Shown: piece after piece, positions 2,946 through 16,719 of the stretch | How positions within the stretch are numbered: the stretch's first letter is position 1 | How the letters are laid out: each line of letters starts with the position of its first letter | Source of the DNA: a virus | Length of the DNA stretch: 26,930 nt | Direction: 5' to 3' (one strand) | IMG/VR virus record: IMGVR_UViG_3300030450_002050 | Span: 1-26,930 of that record | The notes under the pieces: generated by a model | Database searches by the model: none | What the model saw: the letters and a program-made list of their open reading frames with translations, nothing else | Told to the model about the DNA's origin: nothing | Position numbers and translations under genes: made by a program

Positions 2946-3566
2946 ATGAATATTTCAGATATTAAGAGATTATTATCAAAATCGTTCCAAAACACTATCA
3001 AAAACATCGTTTCTTTAGGTGATGATAGTACACTGGAATCAGATAGAAAACCTCTTAAAATTGGTGGAAAAACTACACCACTGGAATTATCAACTGATAA
3101 TGTTTATGTAAATGGACAGGAAATAGATTTAAAATATCAGTATCAATTGTATCATTTAGGATATAATGCTACTGTTACAGATATTTATTTTCCTATAAAT
3201 GGATATATTTTTGAAGGTACAACAGCTTCACACAGAAATGAATATCAAGGACTTGTAGCACCATATAATGGAACAATAGAAAAATTAGTATTTAGATCAG
3301 AAACTGCACAAAGCGGTGATATATCTTTAAAAGTATATGAAGGTACAGATGGAACTGAAATACCTGCTACTGGTATTTTTACTGCTACAACTGCAGTTGA
3401 TATAGCTGATGATATATATCAAGAATTGGATTTAAAAACACCTAGTACGGGAACATCTAATTGTCCTCTGACAAGAGGTAACATTTACCAGTTTGAATTA
3501 GAAACGCCAATAGCTAGTGCAGATACAAATATAACTATGGTTTTTAAGTGGGATATTACTACTTAA
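2946..3566 (+). CDS. Probable virion fibre/decoration protein with beta-sandwich C terminus
   Basis: The product has 206 residues. About 75 N-terminal residues form a linker rich in Lys, Leu and Asp that includes SDRKPLKIGGKTTPLELS, which resembles the short repeats of tail-fibre shafts. Residues from about 80 to the end alternate like a beta sandwich: GLVAPYNGTIEKLVFRSE, then QSGDISLKVYEGTDGTEIP, ending in a strand TNITMVFKWDIT. This C-terminal pattern is common in structural proteins of marine phages, and the next gene carries a similar domain (shared A.SGD(I/V) block and similar last strand). The likely role is host attachment or virion surface decoration. The exact position on the particle cannot be told. 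The start follows directly on the previous stop and its SD is weak. Confidence 0.6.
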   Translation: MNISDIKRLLSKSFQNTIKNIVSLGDDSTLESDRKPLKIGGKTTPLELSTDNVYVNGQEIDLKYQYQLYHLGYNATVTDIYFPINGYIFEGTTASHRNEYQGLVAPYNGTIEKLVFRSETAQSGDISLKVYEGTDGTEIPATGIFTATTAVDIADDIYQELDLKTPSTGTSNCPLTRGNIYQFELETPIASADTNITMVFKWDITT

Positions 3567-3578
3567 TTTATTTATGTG

Positions 3579-3606
3579 TTTATAAATTAAATTATTGGGT
3601 TATATT
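3579..3606 (+). promoter_or_regulatory. Possible promoter in the gap before the second fibre-like gene
   Basis: The 65-bp gap 3567-3631 contains TTTATA (3579-3584) and TATATT (3601-3606) with a 16-bp spacer. A weak AT-only inverted repeat (AATTTAT with ATAAATT) lies around 3565-3589. The gene that follows has its own SD (AAGGAAAAAT). The match is modest for such AT-rich DNA. Confidence 0.22.
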
Positions 3607-3631
3607 ATAACAAACTTTTAAGGAAAAATAT

Positions 3632-4414
3632 ATGAGTTTGACTAACAAATCACCATCAGAAACATACAAAGATCTTTTATATGTTGATAACTCTAATAGT
3701 GGTATAGATTCAACAAAAAGAGATTTAAAATCAGGGAGTGGAACATCTTCAAGTTTATCTGTTTCTGATAGAGGTTTAACAGTTAAATCCAATACAGACA
3801 ATACAAGTGCATTTTCTGTTACTGATTCAGGAGGAACTGATAAATTAATAGTTGATACAACTAATGATACAGTTAAAGCTTTAGGTTTGCATGTTAATAC
3901 ACAGTATGTAAATTTTGGAATAAATAATACGTCATCTAGGACATTTGTTGCTGATACACATTATCCTATTCCATTTGCAAATGGTGACCCGCCTTCTGAT
4001 ATTGATTTTGGTACTGGAACAGATCCAGCTACATCGTTTACTACAGCAGATGCTACTGATACAAGAGCCGCAGATATTGTACCAATGCTATGGTATATTC
4101 ACGATGATATTACTATAGATGAGGTTAAATGTTTTGAAGGTGCTGATGCAGCCAGTGGTGATGTAACAAGGTTTCATTTATTTTCTTATGATTTTACTAA
4201 TGGATCAACATCGTGTTTATCTAATGGAACATTATTAGCACGGACTGGAATAGATGTAAATAATGCAGGCAGTGAACAAGCATATTTAACTACATTAACA
4301 ATAGATAGTGCAAATGTAGCATCAGGAAAAGTTGTATTGGCATTTTTTGAATCAGATAGTATAAATTCAGATTATAGTTTAAGTGTAAATATTAAGTACC
4401 ACATTACAGGCTAA
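3632..4414 (+). CDS. Probable tail-fibre-like virion protein
   Basis: The product has 260 residues. The N terminus (MSLTNKSPSETYKDLLYVDN) and the following Ser/Thr/Asp-rich repeats to about residue 90 (SGTSSSLSVSDRGLTVK, then a similar strand pair ending DTTNDTVKALGL) look like the trimeric beta shaft at the base of phage fibres. The C-terminal part is a beta-sandwich-like domain with ITIDEVKCFEGADAASGD, similar in layout to the end of the previous gene product. The final strand (YSLSVNIKYHITG) resembles that neighbour's last strand. This fits a fibre or spike protein that meets the host surface. It has a good SD (AAGGA, 7 bases before the ATG). It could also be a head fibre. Confidence 0.65.
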   Translation: MSLTNKSPSETYKDLLYVDNSNSGIDSTKRDLKSGSGTSSSLSVSDRGLTVKSNTDNTSAFSVTDSGGTDKLIVDTTNDTVKALGLHVNTQYVNFGINNTSSRTFVADTHYPIPFANGDPPSDIDFGTGTDPATSFTTADATDTRAADIVPMLWYIHDDITIDEVKCFEGADAASGDVTRFHLFSYDFTNGSTSCLSNGTLLARTGIDVNNAGSEQAYLTTLTIDSANVASGKVVLAFFESDSINSDYSLSVNIKYHITG

Positions 4415-6186: not shown

Positions 6187-7169
6187 TGGCTAGTAATTTT
6201 AAGTATGCAACAATACCTGATCTTTTAAAGTATTTTAATAGGGCTGAAGATTACGATAGTAAAAGACAAATATTCCCAACATTAACATCAGGGAATTTAC
6301 ATTTATTTAGAGATAGTGGTTATGCTACTGTATTATTTGTTAATGGTGAAGAACTTGCAGCCGCACAAGGAACATCAGGTGCAGTAGATAGTAATGGAGA
6401 ATGGTTTTACAATCAAGAAACAAATCAAATTGAATACTATAATAGTAATTATACATCAACTACAATAAATGAACAAATATTTGAAACAGGCGTTGATAAC
6501 TATAATTTTCTTGGACAGGCTTTAGTTGATGCTTCATTAGAATTGCATAATTATTTAGATGCTAAATTTTCCACACCTATACAAAAATCTAAACAAGTAG
6601 ATATTGACACTACACCAGTAAGTGTTTCTGAAGAATATGATCCAATCATAATTAAATCAACTTGTTATATTGCAGCTGCTAATCTTATAAGGGCTAAAGA
6701 AGGACAATCTGAAGAAGCGGATTATTATCATTCGCTAGTAACTAATGCTGAAGGTACTGGATTGATAGATAGATTAAATCAAGGTATATACAAACTATCT
6801 AATGAACTTGATGCTAATGATAAAAAAGGTAAAATATTACATAGAGATGTATCCGGAACTATGGATCTTGTAGAATTAGAAGGACAATATTTTGGTGAAA
6901 CATATGATTTAATCAAAGTTCTTTGTACTACTGGTGGTGTTTATGGAACAGCTGAGTTTACTGTATCTTATTATTCTGAAAATAAATTAGAAGGAAAAAC
7001 ATCAACTACAAAAATTATATCAGGTACTATACAAGATATACATAGTGGCTTAAGAGGCAGATGGCAAGGTTCATCAGCAGATGCAGATGATGTATGGTAT
7101 ATAGAGGTTTATGGATCACATATGCAGCAGACTAACAAAAGTAATGCATCAATTGAAATGAGAAGATAG
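6186..7169 (+). CDS. Head-tail adaptor (connector) protein with added beta domain
   Basis: The product has 327 residues. The N-terminal half is the helical adaptor pattern of the gp6/gp15 type: TIPDLLKYFNR near the start, then QALVDASLELHNYLDAKF, DPIIIKSTCYIAAANLI and a C-terminal helix reaching GTGLIDRLNQGI at about residue 200. In related phages such proteins sit under the portal and seal the DNA-filled head. A block of about 60 residues at 45-105 (VLFVNGEELAAAQGT and following) is inserted between the first two helices, and about 110 residues at the end (MDLVELEGQYFGETYDLIKV onward) form an extra beta domain. The following genes (terminator, tail tube, chaperones) support the call. Confidence 0.75.
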   Translation: MASNFKYATIPDLLKYFNRAEDYDSKRQIFPTLTSGNLHLFRDSGYATVLFVNGEELAAAQGTSGAVDSNGEWFYNQETNQIEYYNSNYTSTTINEQIFETGVDNYNFLGQALVDASLELHNYLDAKFSTPIQKSKQVDIDTTPVSVSEEYDPIIIKSTCYIAAANLIRAKEGQSEEADYYHSLVTNAEGTGLIDRLNQGIYKLSNELDANDKKGKILHRDVSGTMDLVELEGQYFGETYDLIKVLCTTGGVYGTAEFTVSYYSENKLEGKTSTTKIISGTIQDIHSGLRGRWQGSSADADDVWYIEVYGSHMQQTNKSNASIEMRR

Positions 7170-7603
7170 TGGCAGTAACCTATGTAAATAATTGGAATAA
7201 TATTATGACGGCGATCAAGAGTAAAATGAGAGCTGAGATGAAATGTCCTATATTTAGTGGTTTTGATCAAATAAATAAATCTAACCAATTTATAAAATTG
7301 ACATCAACTGGATCTAGTCAATTAGAAAAAGCAACATTTTTGGAGGTTAGAGAATATAGTATAGATTGTCAGTATTTTATTTTAAGAAGAAATGATGCTC
7401 AATTTGAAAAATATTTATATAATCAGGTAGGTATATTAGAAGCCTTAATGCATGATAATATTGTTATAGATCTAGCTGATGGAACAAAAGCAGTAGATGT
7501 TACAATGGGACTTATGGAATTTGATGTAGAGGTTGAAGATTTTGAAGATTACTTTGTAATGCAATGGGAACTAACTTGCACACATTTTGGAAACGCAGCT
7601 TAG
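7169..7603 (+). CDS. Tail terminator / tail completion protein
   Basis: The 144-residue product starts with GTG, overlapping the previous TAG by one base. Its alpha/beta pattern is that of tail terminator proteins of the lambda gpU / HK97 gp10-neighbour class: an N-terminal helix (YVNNWNNIMTAIKSKMRAEM), then strands QFIKLTSTGS and EYSIDCQYFILRRN, a helix FEKYLYNQVGILEALMHD, and a final strand DYFVMQWELTC. Such proteins cap the tail tube and join it to the head connector. The position between the adaptor and the major tail protein is the classical one for this function. No enzymatic motif is present. Confidence 0.7.
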   Translation: MAVTYVNNWNNIMTAIKSKMRAEMKCPIFSGFDQINKSNQFIKLTSTGSSQLEKATFLEVREYSIDCQYFILRRNDAQFEKYLYNQVGILEALMHDNIVIDLADGTKAVDVTMGLMEFDVEVEDFEDYFVMQWELTCTHFGNAA

Positions 7604-7610
7604 GAGAAAT

Positions 7611-7802
7611 ATGAAAATAAAAGCTAAATTAGATAAATTTAATAGATTACAAGCACAAACTATACCTTGTTCTATTAATGAAAGAAAAGCTCTTAAAAAG
7701 GGTGAAATAGTAGATGTTAAAGATACAGTAGCTAAAGGTTTATTGTCATTGGGCATCGTAGAAAAAACAACAACAAAGAAAACTAATAAAGGAGAGAAAT
7801 AA
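7611..7802 (+). CDS. Small basic protein between tail genes
   Basis: The product has 63 residues from the ATG at 7611, which is placed 5 bases after a strong TAGGAG; earlier in-frame ATG codons lie inside the previous gene and lack an SD. The body contains KALKKGEIVDVKDTVAKGLL and LGIVEK, a short beta-hairpin plus helix pattern that appears in many small proteins located in head-tail regions of phages. The tail is Lys/Thr-rich (KTTTKKTNKGEK). Its last base is the first base of the major tail protein start. The function is unknown; it is probably a minor structural or assembly factor. Confidence 0.65.
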   Translation: MKIKAKLDKFNRLQAQTIPCSINERKALKKGEIVDVKDTVAKGLLSLGIVEKTTTKKTNKGEK

Positions 7803-8890
7803 TGGCAGACGCTAGGATTTTACCTATTAGTGATGTAAAGATTGGCATAAAAGGTGAAAGTACATTTGGAACAGGATTAGATTCATCAGGTAATGATGGA
7901 ACAGCATATAGACAACTGAATGTGGTGCAAGCTTCTAAACCTACCTTTAACATTACTAGAGAATCAAGATTATTATCAGGAAGAGGAACTATTAAAAATG
8001 CTGCAGATACAGTAATTGATATGAAGGGCGGAACTGTAGTTACACCATTTGAAATGATTGCTACTCCTAAATTATTAGTTCAACATTTAGTATTGGTTGG
8101 ACAAGAATATTCATCATCAGGCGGTGGTGGAAGTGAGGTGCATGAAATAGAATTTGACGGATCATCAAACGGAACATCTGTTGGTGGATCTGTTTCTAGT
8201 GCATTACCACATTCAGTTAATTTAGCATACTATCCAGCAGCTGGTGAAGGTATTAAAGTAGCTGGAAATGTTGTATCTGATCTATCACTTGCTTGGGACT
8301 ATGGCACTAATGGTGGAAATTTGACTATGTCAGGTAATTATTTTAGTGGTTTTTCTAATCCAGTAAGTACCGGATCTGTTTTGGAACAAACATTTGATGG
8401 AACTTGGGTAGATCCTGAAACTAGTTATTATAACATTGGTGGAATAACTACTAAAACATTAGATGTTGAAGGTAATGCAACACAAAACCTTATATTAAAA
8501 TCATTCAATTTAAATATTGCTAATGGTGTAAATAGAGTTGGATCTAACAGTAATGGTGATGCTGAAGCATATGCACTACCTGAATATGTTATTACTGGCG
8601 ATATTACTATCAAATATGATGATGAATTTGATTATGGTTCAGGAAATAATGTTATACAGGACTTTCTTGATGGTGATACATTATCATTAGCTTTGACAAC
8701 TGGCGATGGAACAGTATCATCTGCAGGTGAAATGAATATAGCAGCAGAAATTCAATATACTGGTGATCCATCACAAGACATATCAGAAAATGGAGTATTT
8801 CATACTTTACCATTTGAATGTGTTCAAAATTCAAGCACAGAGGCTTTGAAAATTACAGCATTTAGTGGTGAAGCTAACAGTGCATGGTAG
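7802..8890 (+). CDS. Major tail protein (tail tube)
   Basis: The product has 362 residues with SD GGAGAG upstream. The sequence is beta-rich and has the features of siphovirus tube proteins: an N-terminal segment with VKIGIKGESTFGT and a following block QLNVVQASKPTFNITRE, a central beta sandwich (SLAWDYGTNGGNLTMSG), an ILKSFNLNIANGV strand, and an ending with FECVQNSSTEALKITAF. A Gly/Ser loop (SSSGGGGS) near residue 105 separates two subdomains and may be an added surface domain. Hundreds of copies would stack as rings around the tape measure. It is followed at 25 bp by the tail chaperone genes, the standard order. Confidence 0.8.
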   Translation: MADARILPISDVKIGIKGESTFGTGLDSSGNDGTAYRQLNVVQASKPTFNITRESRLLSGRGTIKNAADTVIDMKGGTVVTPFEMIATPKLLVQHLVLVGQEYSSSGGGGSEVHEIEFDGSSNGTSVGGSVSSALPHSVNLAYYPAAGEGIKVAGNVVSDLSLAWDYGTNGGNLTMSGNYFSGFSNPVSTGSVLEQTFDGTWVDPETSYYNIGGITTKTLDVEGNATQNLILKSFNLNIANGVNRVGSNSNGDAEAYALPEYVITGDITIKYDDEFDYGSGNNVIQDFLDGDTLSLALTTGDGTVSSAGEMNIAAEIQYTGDPSQDISENGVFHTLPFECVQNSSTEALKITAFSGEANSAW

Positions 8891-9578: not shown

Positions 9579-11183
9579 ATGGCAACAAAAGATACACATA
9601 TTATAGATATTAGAACAAAGGGTGCAAAAAAATCCAAAACCGCTATATCAGGAGTTAGTTCAAGTTTAAAAACATTAGGTAAAAGAGCTGGTGCTGCAGC
9701 GTTAGCTTATTTTGGTACAGTAGGTTTAATTAATGGTATAAAAAGTGCAACAGATGCATTTGGACAACAAGAATTAGCAGAAAGAAAATTAAGGTTTTCA
9801 GCTGGAAAGTCTACTGATGAATTAATAAAACAAGCTAAGGCTATACAAAGAGTTTCAAAATTTGGTGATGAAGCTATAATAGCACAACAAGCGTATGTTA
9901 AATCATTAGGAATATCTACTGAACAAACAAAAGAAATAATAGCTGCTTCTGTAGATCTAGCATCTGCAATGGGTATTTCATTAGAAAGTGCTGTTATGAA
10001 TACTACTAAAACATTGAGTGGTATGCAAGGTGAACTTGGTGAGAAACTACCAGCAGCATTTAAAGAATTAACACCTGAAGCTCTTAAAGCTGGTGAGGGT
10101 ATAAAATTTATTGCGGATCAATTTAAAGGACAAGCTAGAAATGAGGTTGAAACATATACTGGTTCATTAGCTCAAATGAGCAATGCTGTTGGTGATGCAG
10201 CTGAAGAATTAGGTGAAATGTTTGCTCCTGCTGTTATAGGTGCTGCAAATGCAATTAAATTTATGGCTGAGAAATTTTCAGATGTATTAAATTTTCAAGA
10301 TAAGTATGATAGACATTTAGAAGCTGAGGTTGAATTATTAACTGAAGCTAAGTTAGCAGCTATGTCATATGAAGAAAGTTTAACTGAAATGAGTAAAGCT
10401 GAACTATTAAATGAACTTTTAGAATTAGGTAATGCAATAGATGGTGTTTCACATAGTCAGATAGATGCAATGATCAGTAGTGGCGAGTTAAGGGACACTA
10501 TAAATTCAATGATTGAGGTTGGAGCATTAGAATCAGAACTTTTATTAAAAATATTAGATATATATGTTAGTTTGCCAGATGTTGTAGATAGTACATCATC
10601 ATCATATGCTAAATTTGAAGAAGCACAACTAAGAAGAATTAAACAGCAAGAAAAAGAAGCTGAATTAATGGAACTCTTTATACAAAAAAATCCTGAACTA
10701 GCTAAATCAATGGGATTGGTTTCAAAAGAAGAAAAAAGAAGAACTGAACTTACCAAAACTTTAGGAAAACAATATAAAGAAATACAATTATCACAAATTA
10801 TAGGTGATACATTTGCTGCTGCTAGAGCACAATTTAAAGAGTATTCAAAAGCTTATCCTGCACCATTAGGAAACATTCTAGGCGCTGCTGCATATACTGC
10901 AACAGTTGCACAAGGATATAAGGATTATGATTCAGTAAGAGCTGCACAATATGGTGCTGATTTTATAACTGATGGGCCACAAATGATGTTAGTGGGTGAA
11001 GGAACAGGGCCTGAAAGAGTTCAAGTTACACCATTAGTTGATGAAAATATTGACGGCCCACAAGGTGGTATGACTATTAACATACAAGGATCTGTTATTG
11101 GTACTGAAGAGTTTACTGAAGATGTATTAATTCCACAGATAAAAGAAGGTTTAAGACTAGGAGGCGATATTGGCTCTAATTAG
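9579..11183 (+). CDS. Tape measure protein
   Basis: The product has 534 residues with SD AAAGGATAG. It is Ala-, Lys- and Glu-rich and largely helical; a hydrophobic segment lies at about residues 38-55 (AGAAALAYFGTVGLINGI). Residues 60-240 match the usual tape-measure core (ATDAFGQQELAERKLRFS, LASAMGISLESAVMNTTKTL, MFAPAVIGAANAIKFMAEKF). The C terminus has the conserved MLVGEGTGPERVQVTPL block at about 470-486. It sets tail length and enters the cell at infection; at roughly 0.15 nm per residue it predicts a tail near 80 nm, which is short for a siphovirus. The next gene overlaps it by 14 bp. Confidence 0.88.
   Translation: MATKDTHIIDIRTKGAKKSKTAISGVSSSLKTLGKRAGAAALAYFGTVGLINGIKSATDAFGQQELAERKLRFSAGKSTDELIKQAKAIQRVSKFGDEAIIAQQAYVKSLGISTEQTKEIIAASVDLASAMGISLESAVMNTTKTLSGMQGELGEKLPAAFKELTPEALKAGEGIKFIADQFKGQARNEVETYTGSLAQMSNAVGDAAEELGEMFAPAVIGAANAIKFMAEKFSDVLNFQDKYDRHLEAEVELLTEAKLAAMSYEESLTEMSKAELLNELLELGNAIDGVSHSQIDAMISSGELRDTINSMIEVGALESELLLKILDIYVSLPDVVDSTSSSYAKFEEAQLRRIKQQEKEAELMELFIQKNPELAKSMGLVSKEEKRRTELTKTLGKQYKEIQLSQIIGDTFAAARAQFKEYSKAYPAPLGNILGAAAYTATVAQGYKDYDSVRAAQYGADFITDGPQMMLVGEGTGPERVQVTPLVDENIDGPQGGMTINIQGSVIGTEEFTEDVLIPQIKEGLRLGGDIGSN
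11159..11164 (+). promoter_or_regulatory. Strong SD that selects a TTG start
   Basis: AGGAGG lies 5 bases before the TTG at 11170, inside the end of the tape-measure gene. It is one of the best SD sites in the window, and it makes the TTG, not a later ATG, the start of the large tail-tip gene. Confidence 0.8.
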
Positions 11184-14100
11184 TCAAAAGTTTAAAAATG
11201 ACACAAAGACTAATTCAATTGATGTAGAACCAGTAATAGTTTTAGCTGATTCAACAGATGATAGTTATACAGTATTAGATATATATAGTAATAGTACTTT
11301 AAATTTAAAAGATCAAGATTCTAACACATTAAAACAATCGCGTCCAATAATAAACAAAATATCTAGTATTAAAAATAGTATTGATTATGAATCTAAAAAT
11401 ATAAAAGTCAATACATTTAGATTTAGTATTCACAATTATCACGACATTACAAAAAAACTAACATCATCAGATAGTTATTCATTGTTATCTAATAACTCAT
11501 TAATGGGTAAAAATGTAATTTTGTTCTATAAAACACAAACTTGTGAAAATTTATTTTTATTAAAAGATACAACTTTATTTGATACAGGATCATATGAAAA
11601 TGATCCGTTATGTTCTATTATGTTTTATGGTGTAATAAATAGAGTAACACAAACAGATGAAACTATTACTATACAAGCAGAAGATTTATCACAAGAATAT
11701 ATTAAAGATAAAGAGTTACCAGTAAATAATGTTGGAGGATTACCTGATAATATTAAAAGTAATATATCTGATAGAGATGATACACAGCCAATTCCAATGG
11801 TATTTGGATCTGTAGAACATGCTCCAACTATTTCATATAAAACAAATTTAAAAAATTCAGATGGTTTTACATCTCTTGGTTTTATACACGATTCATATCC
11901 AATCAACTCTTTTGATAATTATTTGATTAAAGGACAAGACCGGACACCTTATCATTTATTTTTAGAAGATGATGACGACTATGTTGCTTTTCCATATCAA
12001 ACTGGTAAAAATTTAAGTTTAGGCAGAAGCTATTTTGTAGATATTGGAGCTTATGCAGAAAATGAATCTTATATTGTTCCTGAAATCCAAGAAAACGCAC
12101 AAGAAAAACAATCTATATATTGTATAGGTTTTTTACCTATATCTAATGTAGTGGGTGATGGAACAGGCGATAACAAATTAGATGGATTATTAGGACAAAT
12201 ACAAGACATACAACCATTATCAAATACTGAAGCAATAACTAGAGAATATTTAAGTAAAAATATGTGGAAAAAAGAAGATGATCTTTTAGAAACAACACCT
12301 TTAATTATTGATCCAAAAACATTTACAATTAGTACAGAAGCAGGAACAGCAAGGTGGATTTTATTGCAATTAAACGCAGATAAGGTTTTTAATAGAATAG
12401 ATGGAACAATTGGATTATATACAGAATTAGGATCTGATGGTGTTCCAAATCCTTTTGGTATTACAAATACTGAAAATGTCAATTTATATATAAAGCCATT
12501 TAGTCCTGAATATTTTAAATTATTATTTGAAAATGTTACAAATGCTAATAGTTGGTTAGATAAAATTTTAGATGATATGCCAATTGATGGTGATGTTCCT
12601 AATTATTCACACGGTGTTAGAACATTGTTAGCAAATCAATCTTTAGACATAGGAACAACTACAGCTATAGGTGATCAAGTAGGTGATAGTTATTTTGATT
12701 TCAACCATCAGGATTTAAAAGATTACTATGAAAATTCTGATAGTGTAAACAGAATATTATTATTTGATTTTTATAAAACAACTGACTTTAGCACTGATAT
12801 TACTTTTGGACATTTTTGTTCTGATTTAAAAATGCAGTATATAAAAGAAATAACTGATTATGAAAATGAAAAGTTTTATGCATCTATAATTGGAAGAAAA
12901 GATTATGTATCAACTGAAAAAATAGAACATTTAGAAGAACTAGAAGCTGAATTACAAGTAACTCCATTTGAAGCAGCTTTAGGGGCAGATAATGAATTAC
13001 CTGATTTTGAAGCCTTGATAAATGAATGGGACGAATATTTTATTGATAAATATACAAGACATTCACCTTTTGAGCAATTGACAGATGTTTCATTTTTAAC
13101 AATAAACTTATCTATGGGAGGGAATTTTTTTACTCCATTGCCAGAATATAGTTATATGGACGATATAGGTATTCAACCAAATAATACAATACCATTTGAT
13201 TACAATTACAAAACAACATCTGATGTTGATGATTCAACTTTTATGACATCACACCAAATAATACATTATGTTCTTCACGGCTGCATGAAAAAATTAAATA
13301 AAAATATTTTAGATTATATTATTTTTGAAACTGAAGTTTTTGATTATATAATGGAAAACTTGCCTGATTACTTTATAGGTGGTTTTATGCAAAATGACAA
13401 TATACAAAGTCCATTTTATAATGGTTTAATACATCATACTTTTGTGTTTTTTAATGATAATGATGAATTTATATCTTTATTAGAATCTAAAATGTCAGAA
13501 TACAATACACATAGAAGGGCACTTTTAAGAAGAATATTTAAATACCTATATCAAAACCCTTTAAATGAAGAAAACAATGTAGATAGTGTGTTTTCTGGCT
13601 TCACATATGAATATAATAGTTTTGAAGATATAATTGGTGGTGGTTTTGCTACTGAACAAGTTTGGTTAGATAATTTACAAACATATTTAGATGACACAAT
13701 GAAAACTATCAACACATCAATTTATGATATAGGATCTGATTTAAGTCCAACGGCTGATAATGCTAATGTTGGACACAGAGCGGAATTATATGTTTGGGAC
13801 GACAATCCTTCATTTATAGGCACACGGTATCCATTTATGATGAATTTGTTTTATTATATTAATTATGATTCTATACAAAGTGAATGTTTCACAAATTTAG
13901 ATCTACCATATGAAACAAGCGGTGTAGTTGAAAAACCAGTAGATATATTCATAAATATATTAATTAGAGAATTAGGTTATGGATCAACTGGTATATTTTT
14001 AGATAAATATGCATTTAACTCAAATTTAATAGAAGATGCGCGTGAATATTATGAAGGTTGGAGAATGGGTTTTTGTATTGATGAATCAGTTAAGGCTACA

Positions 14101-15105
14101 AGTTTACTTAAAAATTTCTGTAATGAAACAAAATCTATTTTTAATTTTACAAATGAAGGCAAATTTGGTTTAATAACAATAAAAAATTCATATAATTATG
14201 ATGATTTAGATTATACAATAGATAAAAATGATGTTATATCATATAAAATAAGTAGAACTAAAAGAGAAAATATTATAACAGGAAATAAATACTATTATAA
14301 TTATGATAATGGTAAGGATAGATATAAAAATGATACTGGAACTGTAGATGTAAAAGACTTATATCCACAATACAATGGTTATGAGTATTATAATGTTTTA
14401 TCTGAAAATACATTTAAAGAAAAAGAATTAAGGTATCATTCTGATAGAGTTACTGCTAAAGACTTTCAAGTATATGATTTAGGTTTTAACATAAACCAAC
14501 ATTTATTAATATCTTTAGATTTGCCCTTAAATTATACAAACATTGATGTTGGATCAATAATACACATACCTCTTTTAAATGACAACAAAGCTTTTGGTTT
14601 AGATTATAGTAAAATACAGACTTTAAATGATCAAACCATATATCCAATATGGATAGTTACTGGCATTAATATAACAACAAATAAAATCAATATAACAGCT
14701 ATGCAGCTACATCACATAAAAACAAATGTAAACGATGTAAATACTTATACACAACCTGATGAAAATGTAGTAATAAGTGTAAACACACAACAATATCATA
14801 CATTTTATAAGTATCCTAATGGTGATCCTGTTGAAAATTGGAACTATGTAAGTCCACAATCTTATCAAAATTTAAATTATATAGTTGAAGATAGTGGTTT
14901 ACAAATACCATATGGTGATATAACTGGTAATGGTGAAATTAATGTTGTAGATGTTTTAAATGGTGTAAACAGCATATTAGGAATTACAGAACTATCAACT
15001 ACACAAAACATTAGAGGTGATATAGATAGAAATGGTTCACTTAATGTTGCTGATGTAGTCAATATGATTGATATAATATTAAGTTCAGGAGCTCAAAATG
15101 AATAA
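11170..15105 (+). CDS. Large tail-tip / baseplate protein with C-terminal dockerin-like repeats
   Basis: The product has 1311 residues, begins at TTG with a strong SD and overlaps the tape measure gene by 14 bp. The N-terminal 200 residues look like a distal-tail type beta domain (VLDIYSNSTLNL, then VNTFRFSIHNY, IMFYGVINRVTQTDETITIQAEDL). A long acidic/aromatic middle (about 350-950) is unlike families I recognise. Residues 1000-1220 resemble the baseplate-hub part of tail-associated proteins: FNFTNEGKFGLITIKN, ISYKISRTKRENI, DVGSIIHIPL and IWIVTGINITTNKINITAMQ. The last 60 residues contain two dockerin-type calcium loops, GDITGNGEINVVDVL (1249-1263) and GDIDRNGSLNVADVV (1283-1297). It is probably the central tail-tip structure. 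The middle could be several fused tail genes. Confidence 0.75.
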   Translation: MALISQKFKNDTKTNSIDVEPVIVLADSTDDSYTVLDIYSNSTLNLKDQDSNTLKQSRPIINKISSIKNSIDYESKNIKVNTFRFSIHNYHDITKKLTSSDSYSLLSNNSLMGKNVILFYKTQTCENLFLLKDTTLFDTGSYENDPLCSIMFYGVINRVTQTDETITIQAEDLSQEYIKDKELPVNNVGGLPDNIKSNISDRDDTQPIPMVFGSVEHAPTISYKTNLKNSDGFTSLGFIHDSYPINSFDNYLIKGQDRTPYHLFLEDDDDYVAFPYQTGKNLSLGRSYFVDIGAYAENESYIVPEIQENAQEKQSIYCIGFLPISNVVGDGTGDNKLDGLLGQIQDIQPLSNTEAITREYLSKNMWKKEDDLLETTPLIIDPKTFTISTEAGTARWILLQLNADKVFNRIDGTIGLYTELGSDGVPNPFGITNTENVNLYIKPFSPEYFKLLFENVTNANSWLDKILDDMPIDGDVPNYSHGVRTLLANQSLDIGTTTAIGDQVGDSYFDFNHQDLKDYYENSDSVNRILLFDFYKTTDFSTDITFGHFCSDLKMQYIKEITDYENEKFYASIIGRKDYVSTEKIEHLEELEAELQVTPFEAALGADNELPDFEALINEWDEYFIDKYTRHSPFEQLTDVSFLTINLSMGGNFFTPLPEYSYMDDIGIQPNNTIPFDYNYKTTSDVDDSTFMTSHQIIHYVLHGCMKKLNKNILDYIIFETEVFDYIMENLPDYFIGGFMQNDNIQSPFYNGLIHHTFVFFNDNDEFISLLESKMSEYNTHRRALLRRIFKYLYQNPLNEENNVDSVFSGFTYEYNSFEDIIGGGFATEQVWLDNLQTYLDDTMKTINTSIYDIGSDLSPTADNANVGHRAELYVWDDNPSFIGTRYPFMMNLFYYINYDSIQSECFTNLDLPYETSGVVEKPVDIFINILIRELGYGSTGIFLDKYAFNSNLIEDAREYYEGWRMGFCIDESVKATSLLKNFCNETKSIFNFTNEGKFGLITIKNSYNYDDLDYTIDKNDVISYKISRTKRENIITGNKYYYNYDNGKDRYKNDTGTVDVKDLYPQYNGYEYYNVLSENTFKEKELRYHSDRVTAKDFQVYDLGFNINQHLLISLDLPLNYTNIDVGSIIHIPLLNDNKAFGLDYSKIQTLNDQTIYPIWIVTGINITTNKINITAMQLHHIKTNVNDVNTYTQPDENVVISVNTQQYHTFYKYPNGDPVENWNYVSPQSYQNLNYIVEDSGLQIPYGDITGNGEINVVDVLNGVNSILGITELSTTQNIRGDIDRNGSLNVADVVNMIDIILSSGAQNE
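14914..15081 (+). other. Dockerin-like pair of calcium-binding repeats
   Basis: Two repeats of the form GDxxxNGxxNxxDVxxxxxxIL, about 34 residues apart, lie at the very end of the tail-tip protein (residues 1249-1304). The Asp/Asn at loop positions 1, 5, 9 and 12 are present in both, as in type I dockerins. Dockerins bind cohesin partners in cellulosomes; no cohesin is recognisable in this window, so here they may only stabilise the tip with calcium or bind an unknown partner. Confidence 0.75.
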
Positions 15106-15679
15106 TTTAAATATAAATGAGGAACTTGTATCAATAAAAACTGATATAATTTATAAAGCTATAGAAATTAATTATTATGGTGAACTTTATATAAATAATT
15201 TGATGCCTGATAGTTATATAGTACAAAAAAATAATGGTAAAATATTAATATTTAGGTTTAACAGAAATGATGAAATAATAGAAGATTTGTTTTTATATAA
15301 TGGGACTTGTAAAATATACAATGCTTACTTGTTAGATTCTGAAAATAAAAAACATATATTAAATGTAAAGAGATTATCATTGCTTAATTTTAATGTTATG
15401 TATGATACTAATTGGGAATCATTAACCAGTAATTATCAAGAAATACAAAGCAAGTCAAGAAATGATATATATAAAGGTTTAAAATATAAAACTTTAGTTA
15501 ATTCTGAAAATTTATCAACTACTAAAGAAACAGAATCAGTATTTAAAATAAGTAGAATATCTAAAAAAGACAAAAATTTAACTACTATAGAATCTTTTGA
15601 AGAACAAACAGAAAATGAAATAGAAGCAAGTGATGATACTGGTGATCAAATAGCAAATTTAAGAAGATATAGACTTTAA
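15098..15679 (+). CDS. Tail-region protein, unknown
   Basis: The 193-residue product overlaps the previous gene by 8 bp and has SD CAGGAG 7 bases before its ATG. The N-terminal half alternates beta strands (IIYKAIEINYYGELYINN, GKILIFRFNRNDEIIEDLFL, KKHILNVKRLSLL) and looks like a compact beta domain. The C-terminal half is Lys/Glu/Ser/Thr-rich and probably flexible, ending LRRYRL. I do not recognise a family. Its place between the tail-tip gene and another tail protein suggests a minor tail or tip component. Confidence 0.6.
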   Translation: MNNLNINEELVSIKTDIIYKAIEINYYGELYINNLMPDSYIVQKNNGKILIFRFNRNDEIIEDLFLYNGTCKIYNAYLLDSENKKHILNVKRLSLLNFNVMYDTNWESLTSNYQEIQSKSRNDIYKGLKYKTLVNSENLSTTKETESVFKISRISKKDKNLTTIESFEEQTENEIEASDDTGDQIANLRRYRL

Positions 15680-15687
15680 GGAGAATT

Positions 15688-16719
15688 ATGGCGAAATCTA
15701 ACTACAGCAAACCCACGAAACTGACCTTTTATCCATCGTATTTACAATACGCATATGCAACTGGATTAATAGAAGGTATATCATATGATACACTGGTAAA
15801 TCCTGATTTGAATGATGAAGATGTATATAATATGGTAGTAGTAGATCCATCAAATACAACAAGGTTTAGTTCAACAAGTGAAAGTTATTTTGCTTGGAAG
15901 ATACCTGATAATTGGAATTTTGATTTTGGTATGATTTTAGGACATAATTTTAATAACTACCTTACATATCAACCATATTCATTTACTGGTGAAGATGATC
16001 CTATTAGGGACACTATAATACACGGTGATAATATAGTTAATTATAATGCTTTTGGAGCTCCACAATTTAATGGTTGGAGCGCATTTACTTTAGGTAATTT
16101 ACCTACGGATCAAAATTGGATCGGTATTGATGAAACGCATGAAGGTTCATTAGTATTAACAGATACATACATAGGTTCAGTATTGTTTGGTAAAAAATGG
16201 GAAGCTCCTATTAATGTCAATATTAATTCATCAATCCATTATAATTATGGCAACAAAATTAAAAAAACTATTGGTGGTAAAACATTATCACAAATGAATT
16301 ATTATAAACCTAATAGATGGGGTGATCTTGATGCTTGGGAACTGCACGAAGATCTACCTACAAATAGAGTAGATTCTAGAAATGGTATTAGGAAATGGGA
16401 CGTAACTATGTCATTTTTAAAAGATGAAGATGTACTGCCACAAAATATGATGTCTAATAGTAACTCTTGGCAAAGAGATAATGATTCTGATTATTATGTA
16501 GGTGCTGATGGAACAAGCCTTTATAATTCCAGTAATGGTAGGGATTTCTATACATCAGTTATTAAGATGACAATGGGATCACATTTAAATACAGTAGTCA
16601 AAATATCAGAATCTAATAACCCTGATCAGTGGGCCATTGTAAAAATAACCAAATATAGCATAAGATCCACAAACCCTAAATTTGTTGATGTTTCATTAAC
16701 ACTAGAAGAACAAGTATAG
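15688..16719 (+). CDS. Probable minor tail protein
   Basis: The product has 343 residues with SD AAGGAG. It has a beta-rich, aromatic composition: YFAWKIPDNWNFDFGMILGH near residue 75, QNWIGIDETHEGSLVL, a block GIRKWDVTMSFLKDEDVLP at about 235-252 and an ending QWAIVKITKYSIRS followed by a strand FVDVSLTLEEQ. The KWDVTMSFL and late 'NPKFVDVSLTL' strands are typical of tail proteins from uncultured marine siphoviruses. It is the last gene before a terminator. The first 17 codons use AAC, TAC, AGC, CCC, ACG and CTG, unlike the AT-ending codons elsewhere. A baseplate-periphery or receptor-contact role is possible. Confidence 0.65.
   Translation: MAKSNYSKPTKLTFYPSYLQYAYATGLIEGISYDTLVNPDLNDEDVYNMVVVDPSNTTRFSSTSESYFAWKIPDNWNFDFGMILGHNFNNYLTYQPYSFTGEDDPIRDTIIHGDNIVNYNAFGAPQFNGWSAFTLGNLPTDQNWIGIDETHEGSLVLTDTYIGSVLFGKKWEAPINVNINSSIHYNYGNKIKKTIGGKTLSQMNYYKPNRWGDLDAWELHEDLPTNRVDSRNGIRKWDVTMSFLKDEDVLPQNMMSNSNSWQRDNDSDYYVGADGTSLYNSSNGRDFYTSVIKMTMGSHLNTVVKISESNNPDQWAIVKITKYSIRSTNPKFVDVSLTLEEQV

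Follow-up and report, generated by a model that had tools for sequence, protein, structure and literature searches.

A dockerin pair at the end of a phage tail-tip hub and a cohesin-like neighbour as its candidate partner

The tail-tip hub protein encoded in the window, the whole stretch of 26.9 kb analysed here (an IMG/VR virus record with the gene order of a tailed phage), ends in a pair of dockerin repeats, and the gene that follows it, here called gene A, has a cohesin-like predicted fold. Dockerin and cohesin are among the best studied protein plugs and are known from cellulosomes and from scattered cellular proteins. Given a dockerin on the hub and such a fold encoded next to it, part of the host-recognition end of the tail is, in this phage and its relatives, probably snapped together in the way cellulosomes are assembled. 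We assign a probability of roughly 60% to the reading that a phage-encoded, calcium-dependent dockerin:cohesin-like joint plugs the gene A protein onto the tail tip; that the two proteins physically bind we infer, and likewise the calcium dependence, the stoichiometry and the receptor-binding role of the joint. The features concerned are collected in Table 1.

Table 1. Positions of the hub, its dockerin pair and the neighbouring genes in the window
Feature	Position	Strand	Basis
Tape measure protein (534 aa), encoded ahead of the hub	9579..11183	+	Matches PHROG tape measure families at E~2e-5; in relatives, homologues lie before the hub
Tail-tip hub, 1311 aa, TTG start, lambda gpJ-like by predicted structure	11170..15105	+	Structural matches of the C-terminal model
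Low-confidence linker from hub domain to dockerin	14734..14898	+	Model pLDDT <50 (residues 283-310, 312-337)
Type I dockerin pair; first repeat from 14914, second from 15016	14911..15078	+	PF00404, PDB sequence match, 1ohz/2ccl fold match, ligands conserved in 89 relatives
Gene A N-terminal domain, residues 1-95, predicted cohesin-like beta-sandwich, proposed dockerin partner	15098..15382	+	AF2, structural search, gene position
Gene A C-terminal part, low-confidence	15383..15679	+	Low pLDDT; in many relatives basic, Gly/Ser-rich and ending in GGY; LamG lectin domain instead in L143
Gene B, conserved third gene of the block (343 aa)	15688..16719	+	Family downstream of the hub in 112/127 loci listed

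The tail-tip hub and its C-terminal dockerin pair

The hub gene immediately follows the tape measure gene, the end of which is overlapped by the start of the hub ORF; the hub genes of lambda (gpJ), JBD30 and Chi likewise come after the tape measure gene. When the last 405 residues were modelled with AF2, pLDDT values were mostly above 85 in the hub regions and 93–97 across the dockerin pair. The hub regions matched the tail tips of lambda, Chi, JBD30 and T1 with Z-scores of 16–18 (JBD30 8rk3_b, Z 18.2; Chi 8vjh_A, 18.1; lambda 8xcg_F, 17.7), and the last 60 residues of the modelled hub matched dockerins, with a Z-score of 12.0 for 2ccl. Since one part matches tail-tip proteins and the other dockerins, the 1311-aa protein is, by its predicted structure, a tail-tip hub of the lambda gpJ type that bears a dockerin at its C terminus. 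It shares the hub fold with lambda gpJ and the JBD30 and Chi hubs but differs from them in that its C terminus ends in a dockerin, and we know of no such feature in gpJ. Homology between the hub and its relatives is confined to residues ~1–240 and ~919–1185 with 25–30% identity, while the middle part and the linker are variable. In three relatives (L028, L030 and L055) the C-terminal region of the hub carries cysteine repeats of the GCTDxxAxNYNPxAxxDDGSC type in or near the linker beside the dockerin. Positions 1642–2190 of the window, close to the tail region, encode a DUF2589 protein (PF11655, E = 9.4e-34).

The two repeats, GDITGNGEINVVDVLNGVNSILG (starting at 14914) and GDIDRNGSLNVADVVNMIDIILS (starting at 15016), lie in frame with a spacing of 34 residues near the C terminus of the ORF. 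A DNA pattern for the repeat motif matched twice in the window, compared with a mean of 0.00 matches in 100 shuffles. Scored locally, the stretch 14911–15078 gave a full-length match to PF00404 with 24.5 bits, over the cut-off of 22.9; in the whole 1311-aa protein the score was 17.6 bits (E = 0.0045), which is under the cut-off. PF00404 was found above the cut-off in 48 of 49 records. A phmmer search against PDB sequences returned the dockerins 2ccl_B (E = 9.3e-7) and 1ohz_B (E = 1.4e-5). The preliminary description of this DNA had proposed dockerin-like calcium repeats at the C terminus of a tail protein, and this proposal is borne out by the PF00404 profile, the match to PDB sequences and the predicted fold, in which the calcium loop-helix pair is present.

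Two calcium loops, each followed by a helix, are seen in the sequence, in 89 relatives and in the model, and calcium binding is predicted. In the 89 relatives, the residues at ligand positions 1, 3, 5, 9 and 12 are nearly invariant in each repeat. The first repeat of the window deviates at two of these positions: T occupies position 3 and N position 5, whereas N and D, respectively, predominate in the relatives. With this nuance the earlier statement that all main calcium ligands are present holds.

Comparison with the type I dockerin of C. thermocellum Xyn10B (1ohz, 2ccl; PF00404) revealed a duplicated calcium loop-helix with all ligand positions in both cases, the same placement as a plug at the C terminus of a larger protein and a closely similar predicted fold, as the modelled pair superimposes on 1ohz_B within 0.8 Å over 55–56 residues. 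However, the dockerin of the window is located on a phage tail-tip hub rather than on a secreted enzyme, there is no scaffoldin, and the residues at positions 10 and 11 are hydrophobic in its group (V/I-L) instead of Ser-Thr. At these positions the relatives carry V/I and mostly L, and the window carries V-V and V-A; the Ser-Thr pair of clostridial specificity is absent from the dockerins of the window and its relatives. In C. thermocellum dockerins, positions 10 and 11 (Ser-Thr) are used to recognize the cohesin; the PF00404 family does not require this pair.

Distribution of the hub dockerin

The tail-tip dockerin is common to a large group of uncultured phages and is no curiosity. Scanning 2.9 million viral contigs with a generic pattern for dockerin repeats yielded 55 stretches. 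When L026, which an earlier pattern had found, is included, 38 of the loci hold a homologue of the window's hub. With the hub motif NxHx6LPxxYxxLExGD, a dockerin-independent search in which the dockerin is not part of the query, we found at least 131 viral loci. Among the loci listed, a significant dockerin is present in 112 of the 117 hubs whose C terminus is complete, a fraction that is biased upwards because the motif was derived from dockerin-bearing hubs. In 107 of these 112 hubs the dockerin ends at most 18 residues before the stop codon. Two of the five complete hubs that have no significant dockerin keep a single degenerate loop by eye. Hubs that are conserved yet carry no dockerin, a case considered in the preliminary description, do exist among the relatives but constitute a small minority, namely these five hubs and a small clade described below.

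A full-length hub query found no relatives among viral contigs and 50,697 phage records, and the hubs of three relatives and one B protein used as queries had no match in the 50,697 phage records. Relatives found through TerL cover other parts of the genome and not the tail. Ten matches in bacterial genomes (L191–L200) were rejected as chance, as they are without a hub or dockerin HMM match. Dockerin repeats also occur on viral proteins other than hubs (L062 5566–5934, L063 2232–2591, L080 1329–1697, L075 900–7704, L081 473–2599 and L043 2155–6776). The carriers include a protein of 119–122 aa in three contigs, and gene A was found in none of these records.

The distribution bears on a role suggested in the preliminary description, in which the dockerin is a receptor-binding element that docks the phage onto a cohesin of the host surface. 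The dockerin is distal, being placed on the tail-tip hub, and cohesins as well as dockerins are also found in bacteria and archaea that do not degrade cellulose (PMC9012536). However, a near-universal module with a calcium core conserved across hubs that are 24–35% identical to that of the window is unlike a host-range determinant, and the phage genome itself provides a candidate partner. We regard docking onto a host cohesin as very improbable.

Gene A, a cohesin-like neighbour

Gene A (15098–15679) immediately follows the hub gene in 123 of the 127 loci listed. Its AF2 model showed block means of 91–97 for residues 1–90 and of 69 for residues 91–100. In the VIA search the best PDB match of the N-terminal domain was the cohesin 2vo8 (Z 9.5, 92 residues aligned), and the same structure was the top match in Foldseek (E = 4.6e-4). 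Cohesins made up 37 of the best 50 VIA rows, many of them from cohesin-dockerin complexes. The margin is modest, as other beta-sandwiches (GH20 N-domain, YcnI, chitin-binding domain) reach Z-scores of 8.3–8.9 in VIA, close to those of the cohesins, and the PDB contains many cohesins. The predicted beta-sandwich resembles cohesin modules (PF00963; 2vo8, 6kgc, 3ul4) over 90–94 residues with Z-scores of 7.6–9.5 and an rmsd of 2.4–3.0. In contrast to these modules it comprises ~95 instead of ~140 residues, is without sequence or profile similarity to them, and occurs once per virus record, alongside a tail-tip dockerin.

PF00963 had no match in 49 virus records at E 0.1 and none among 82 members of the gene A family in a Pfam search, where the family gave no consistent match. 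An hhalign comparison of the gene A profile with 26 bacterial cohesins resulted in a probability of 0.2%, and profiles of gene A, gene B and the hub C terminus yielded nothing informative against PDB, Pfam or PHROGs. In view of the null result of the cohesin profile comparison, gene A is cohesin-like in its predicted fold but no member of PF00963 by sequence. The earlier statement that no cohesin is found among the neighbours does not hold at the level of the fold, since it is the gene right after the hub that has the cohesin-like prediction. In one relative (L143) the gene A homologue (6281–7852, 523 aa) contains a Laminin_G_3 domain (PF13385, E = 1.8e-23) at residues 163–320, after the cohesin-like domain; this lectin domain points to a receptor-binding role.

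A putative calcium-dependent joint at the tail tip

Among the 47 records searched, 32 contained gene A, each in one copy, and it was absent from the 13 records in which the dockerin is located on a non-hub protein. In one locus (L101; record G304, locus L231) the C-terminal half of the hub, the dockerin and the gene A domain form one ORF of 967 aa. The dockerin is found on a separate gene between hub and A in L026 and inside the hub in L120 and L183, and an extra dockerin is present on gene B in L064; in all of these loci A stays in the hub block. These arrangements are relevant to a reading in which the dockerin is a self-contained, calcium-stabilized cap at the C terminus of the hub trimer, serving self-association or rigidity, with no separate partner. 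Its location at the extreme C terminus, its conserved calcium ligands and the V/I and mostly L at positions 10 and 11, the presumed cohesin recognition positions of C. thermocellum dockerins, would suit such a cap. However, a C-terminal cap would tolerate neither transfer to a separate gene nor a position inside the hub, and it leaves the adjacent cohesin-like fold unexplained, which makes this reading quite unlikely.

After removal of hub distances, the distances of dockerin and gene A correlated with r = 0.15, a value reached by 2 of 300 permutations; the same partial correlation for dockerin and gene B was 0.10, reached by 12 of 300 permutations. The mirror-tree comparison thus gave a weak positive signal for a link between dockerin and A. 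A clade comprising L161, L124 and L233–L237, obtained by a direct search from a dockerin-less hub, keeps gene A while its hub has no dockerin, so that A must bind in another way or have another role there. At about the place of the dockerin these hubs share a short C-terminal peptide, EQExDxxL..NPxL, with the EQ and mostly also the NP motif, which may be an alternative docking element. The hubs of L161, L124 and L233 end in a Gly-rich tail with a final Tyr that is elsewhere found on gene A. According to one reading another attachment replaced the dockerin in this clade; according to another, A never needed it.

Gene B had no match among PDB profiles, and in its family one match to PHROG was found, in 1 of 50 members. 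Its homologue in L064 (2140–3954, 604 aa) contains an internal dockerin pair of its own, besides the dockerin of the hub. The proteins at 2946–4414 of the window, which had been named as possible dockerin partners, lie outside the conserved hub-A-B block and are without support. We consider it unlikely that the partner of the dockerin is a different phage protein (a fibre or the gene B product) and that A is a conserved neighbour which joins the hub otherwise. Gene B is part of the block as well (112 of 127 loci listed), it bears a dockerin itself in L064, and A is kept in the clade that has none. Nevertheless, of the two proteins it is A that was modelled and has the cohesin-like predicted fold, A is directly adjacent to the hub, the fusion in L101 links the dockerin to A, and the partial distance correlation is lower for B than for A.

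In the preferred reading, the joint between dockerin and gene A protein, flexible linkers would present the dockerins of the hub, and a trimeric hub, as in lambda, would offer three of them per tip. The gene A protein would be a small adaptor that plugs onto the hub dockerin via its N-terminal cohesin-like domain, and the two would form a calcium-dependent joint inside the virion. Through this joint the distal tail tip would gain the C-terminal part of A, which is a basic Gly-rich tail in many relatives and a lectin domain in L143, and the plugged-on protein would probably belong to the host-recognition end. The idea that the dockerin pair clamps a structural part of the phage was already contained in the preliminary description and is upheld, with the product of the next gene, A, as candidate partner. 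Cohesin-dockerin assembly is calcium-dependent and is disrupted by EDTA (PMC9112005).

The joint is supported by the dockerin fold and the nearly invariant calcium ligands in both repeats, and by retention of the dockerin in 112 of the 117 complete hubs listed although linker and middle part vary strongly. Further support comes from the first rank of cohesin in both structural searches with A, from the position of A directly after the hub (123 of 127 loci listed) together with the fusion of dockerin and A domain, and from the persistence of A in the hub block where the dockerin moves or is added. The single copies of A and its absence from records with non-hub dockerins, the lectin domain on A in L143 and the weak distance correlation also speak for the joint. 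On the other hand, A is without cohesin similarity at the sequence level, other beta-sandwich folds score close, a clade has A but no dockerin, and the mirror-tree signal is weak. A more far-reaching version appears rather doubtful to us: the joint could be calcium-gated, with the dockerin unfolded in the Ca-poor cytoplasm and locking on the A adaptor, together with the lectin or other adhesin that it bears, only after lysis into Ca-rich water, and with exchangeable host-binding heads as in a phage analogue of the cellulosome. The calcium timing of assembly after lysis is speculation.

Our search of open-licence PMC papers revealed no description of a dockerin-cohesin pair as part of a phage virion. 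Papers that mention both dockerin and phage are concerned with other subjects; the nearest reports describe a Vibrio phage gene with similarity to dockerin (PMC3558961) and dockerin/cohesin proteins in methanotrophic archaea (PMC9012536). In such non-cellulosomal archaeal and bacterial proteins (ANME, PMC9012536) the pair is also used outside cellulose degradation, but these are cellular surface proteins and not virion parts. If true, the joint would represent a new calcium-dependent means of attaching adhesins in virology, explain a conserved pair of unannotated genes, serve as a genomic marker for a large uncultured phage group and offer natural plug-and-socket pairs for study.

A C-terminal tail of the form G[GSKR]Y is found in 72 of 117 gene A proteins compared with 10 of ~2095 other ORFs, the latter being largely the N-terminal halves of split hubs plus two dockerin-less hubs. 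It is located at the C termini of gene A proteins in L026–L190, of the hubs in L161, L124 and L233, and of upstream ORFs in L120, L132, L183, L188, L189 and L231. Apparently the tail shifts from protein to protein within a single complex.
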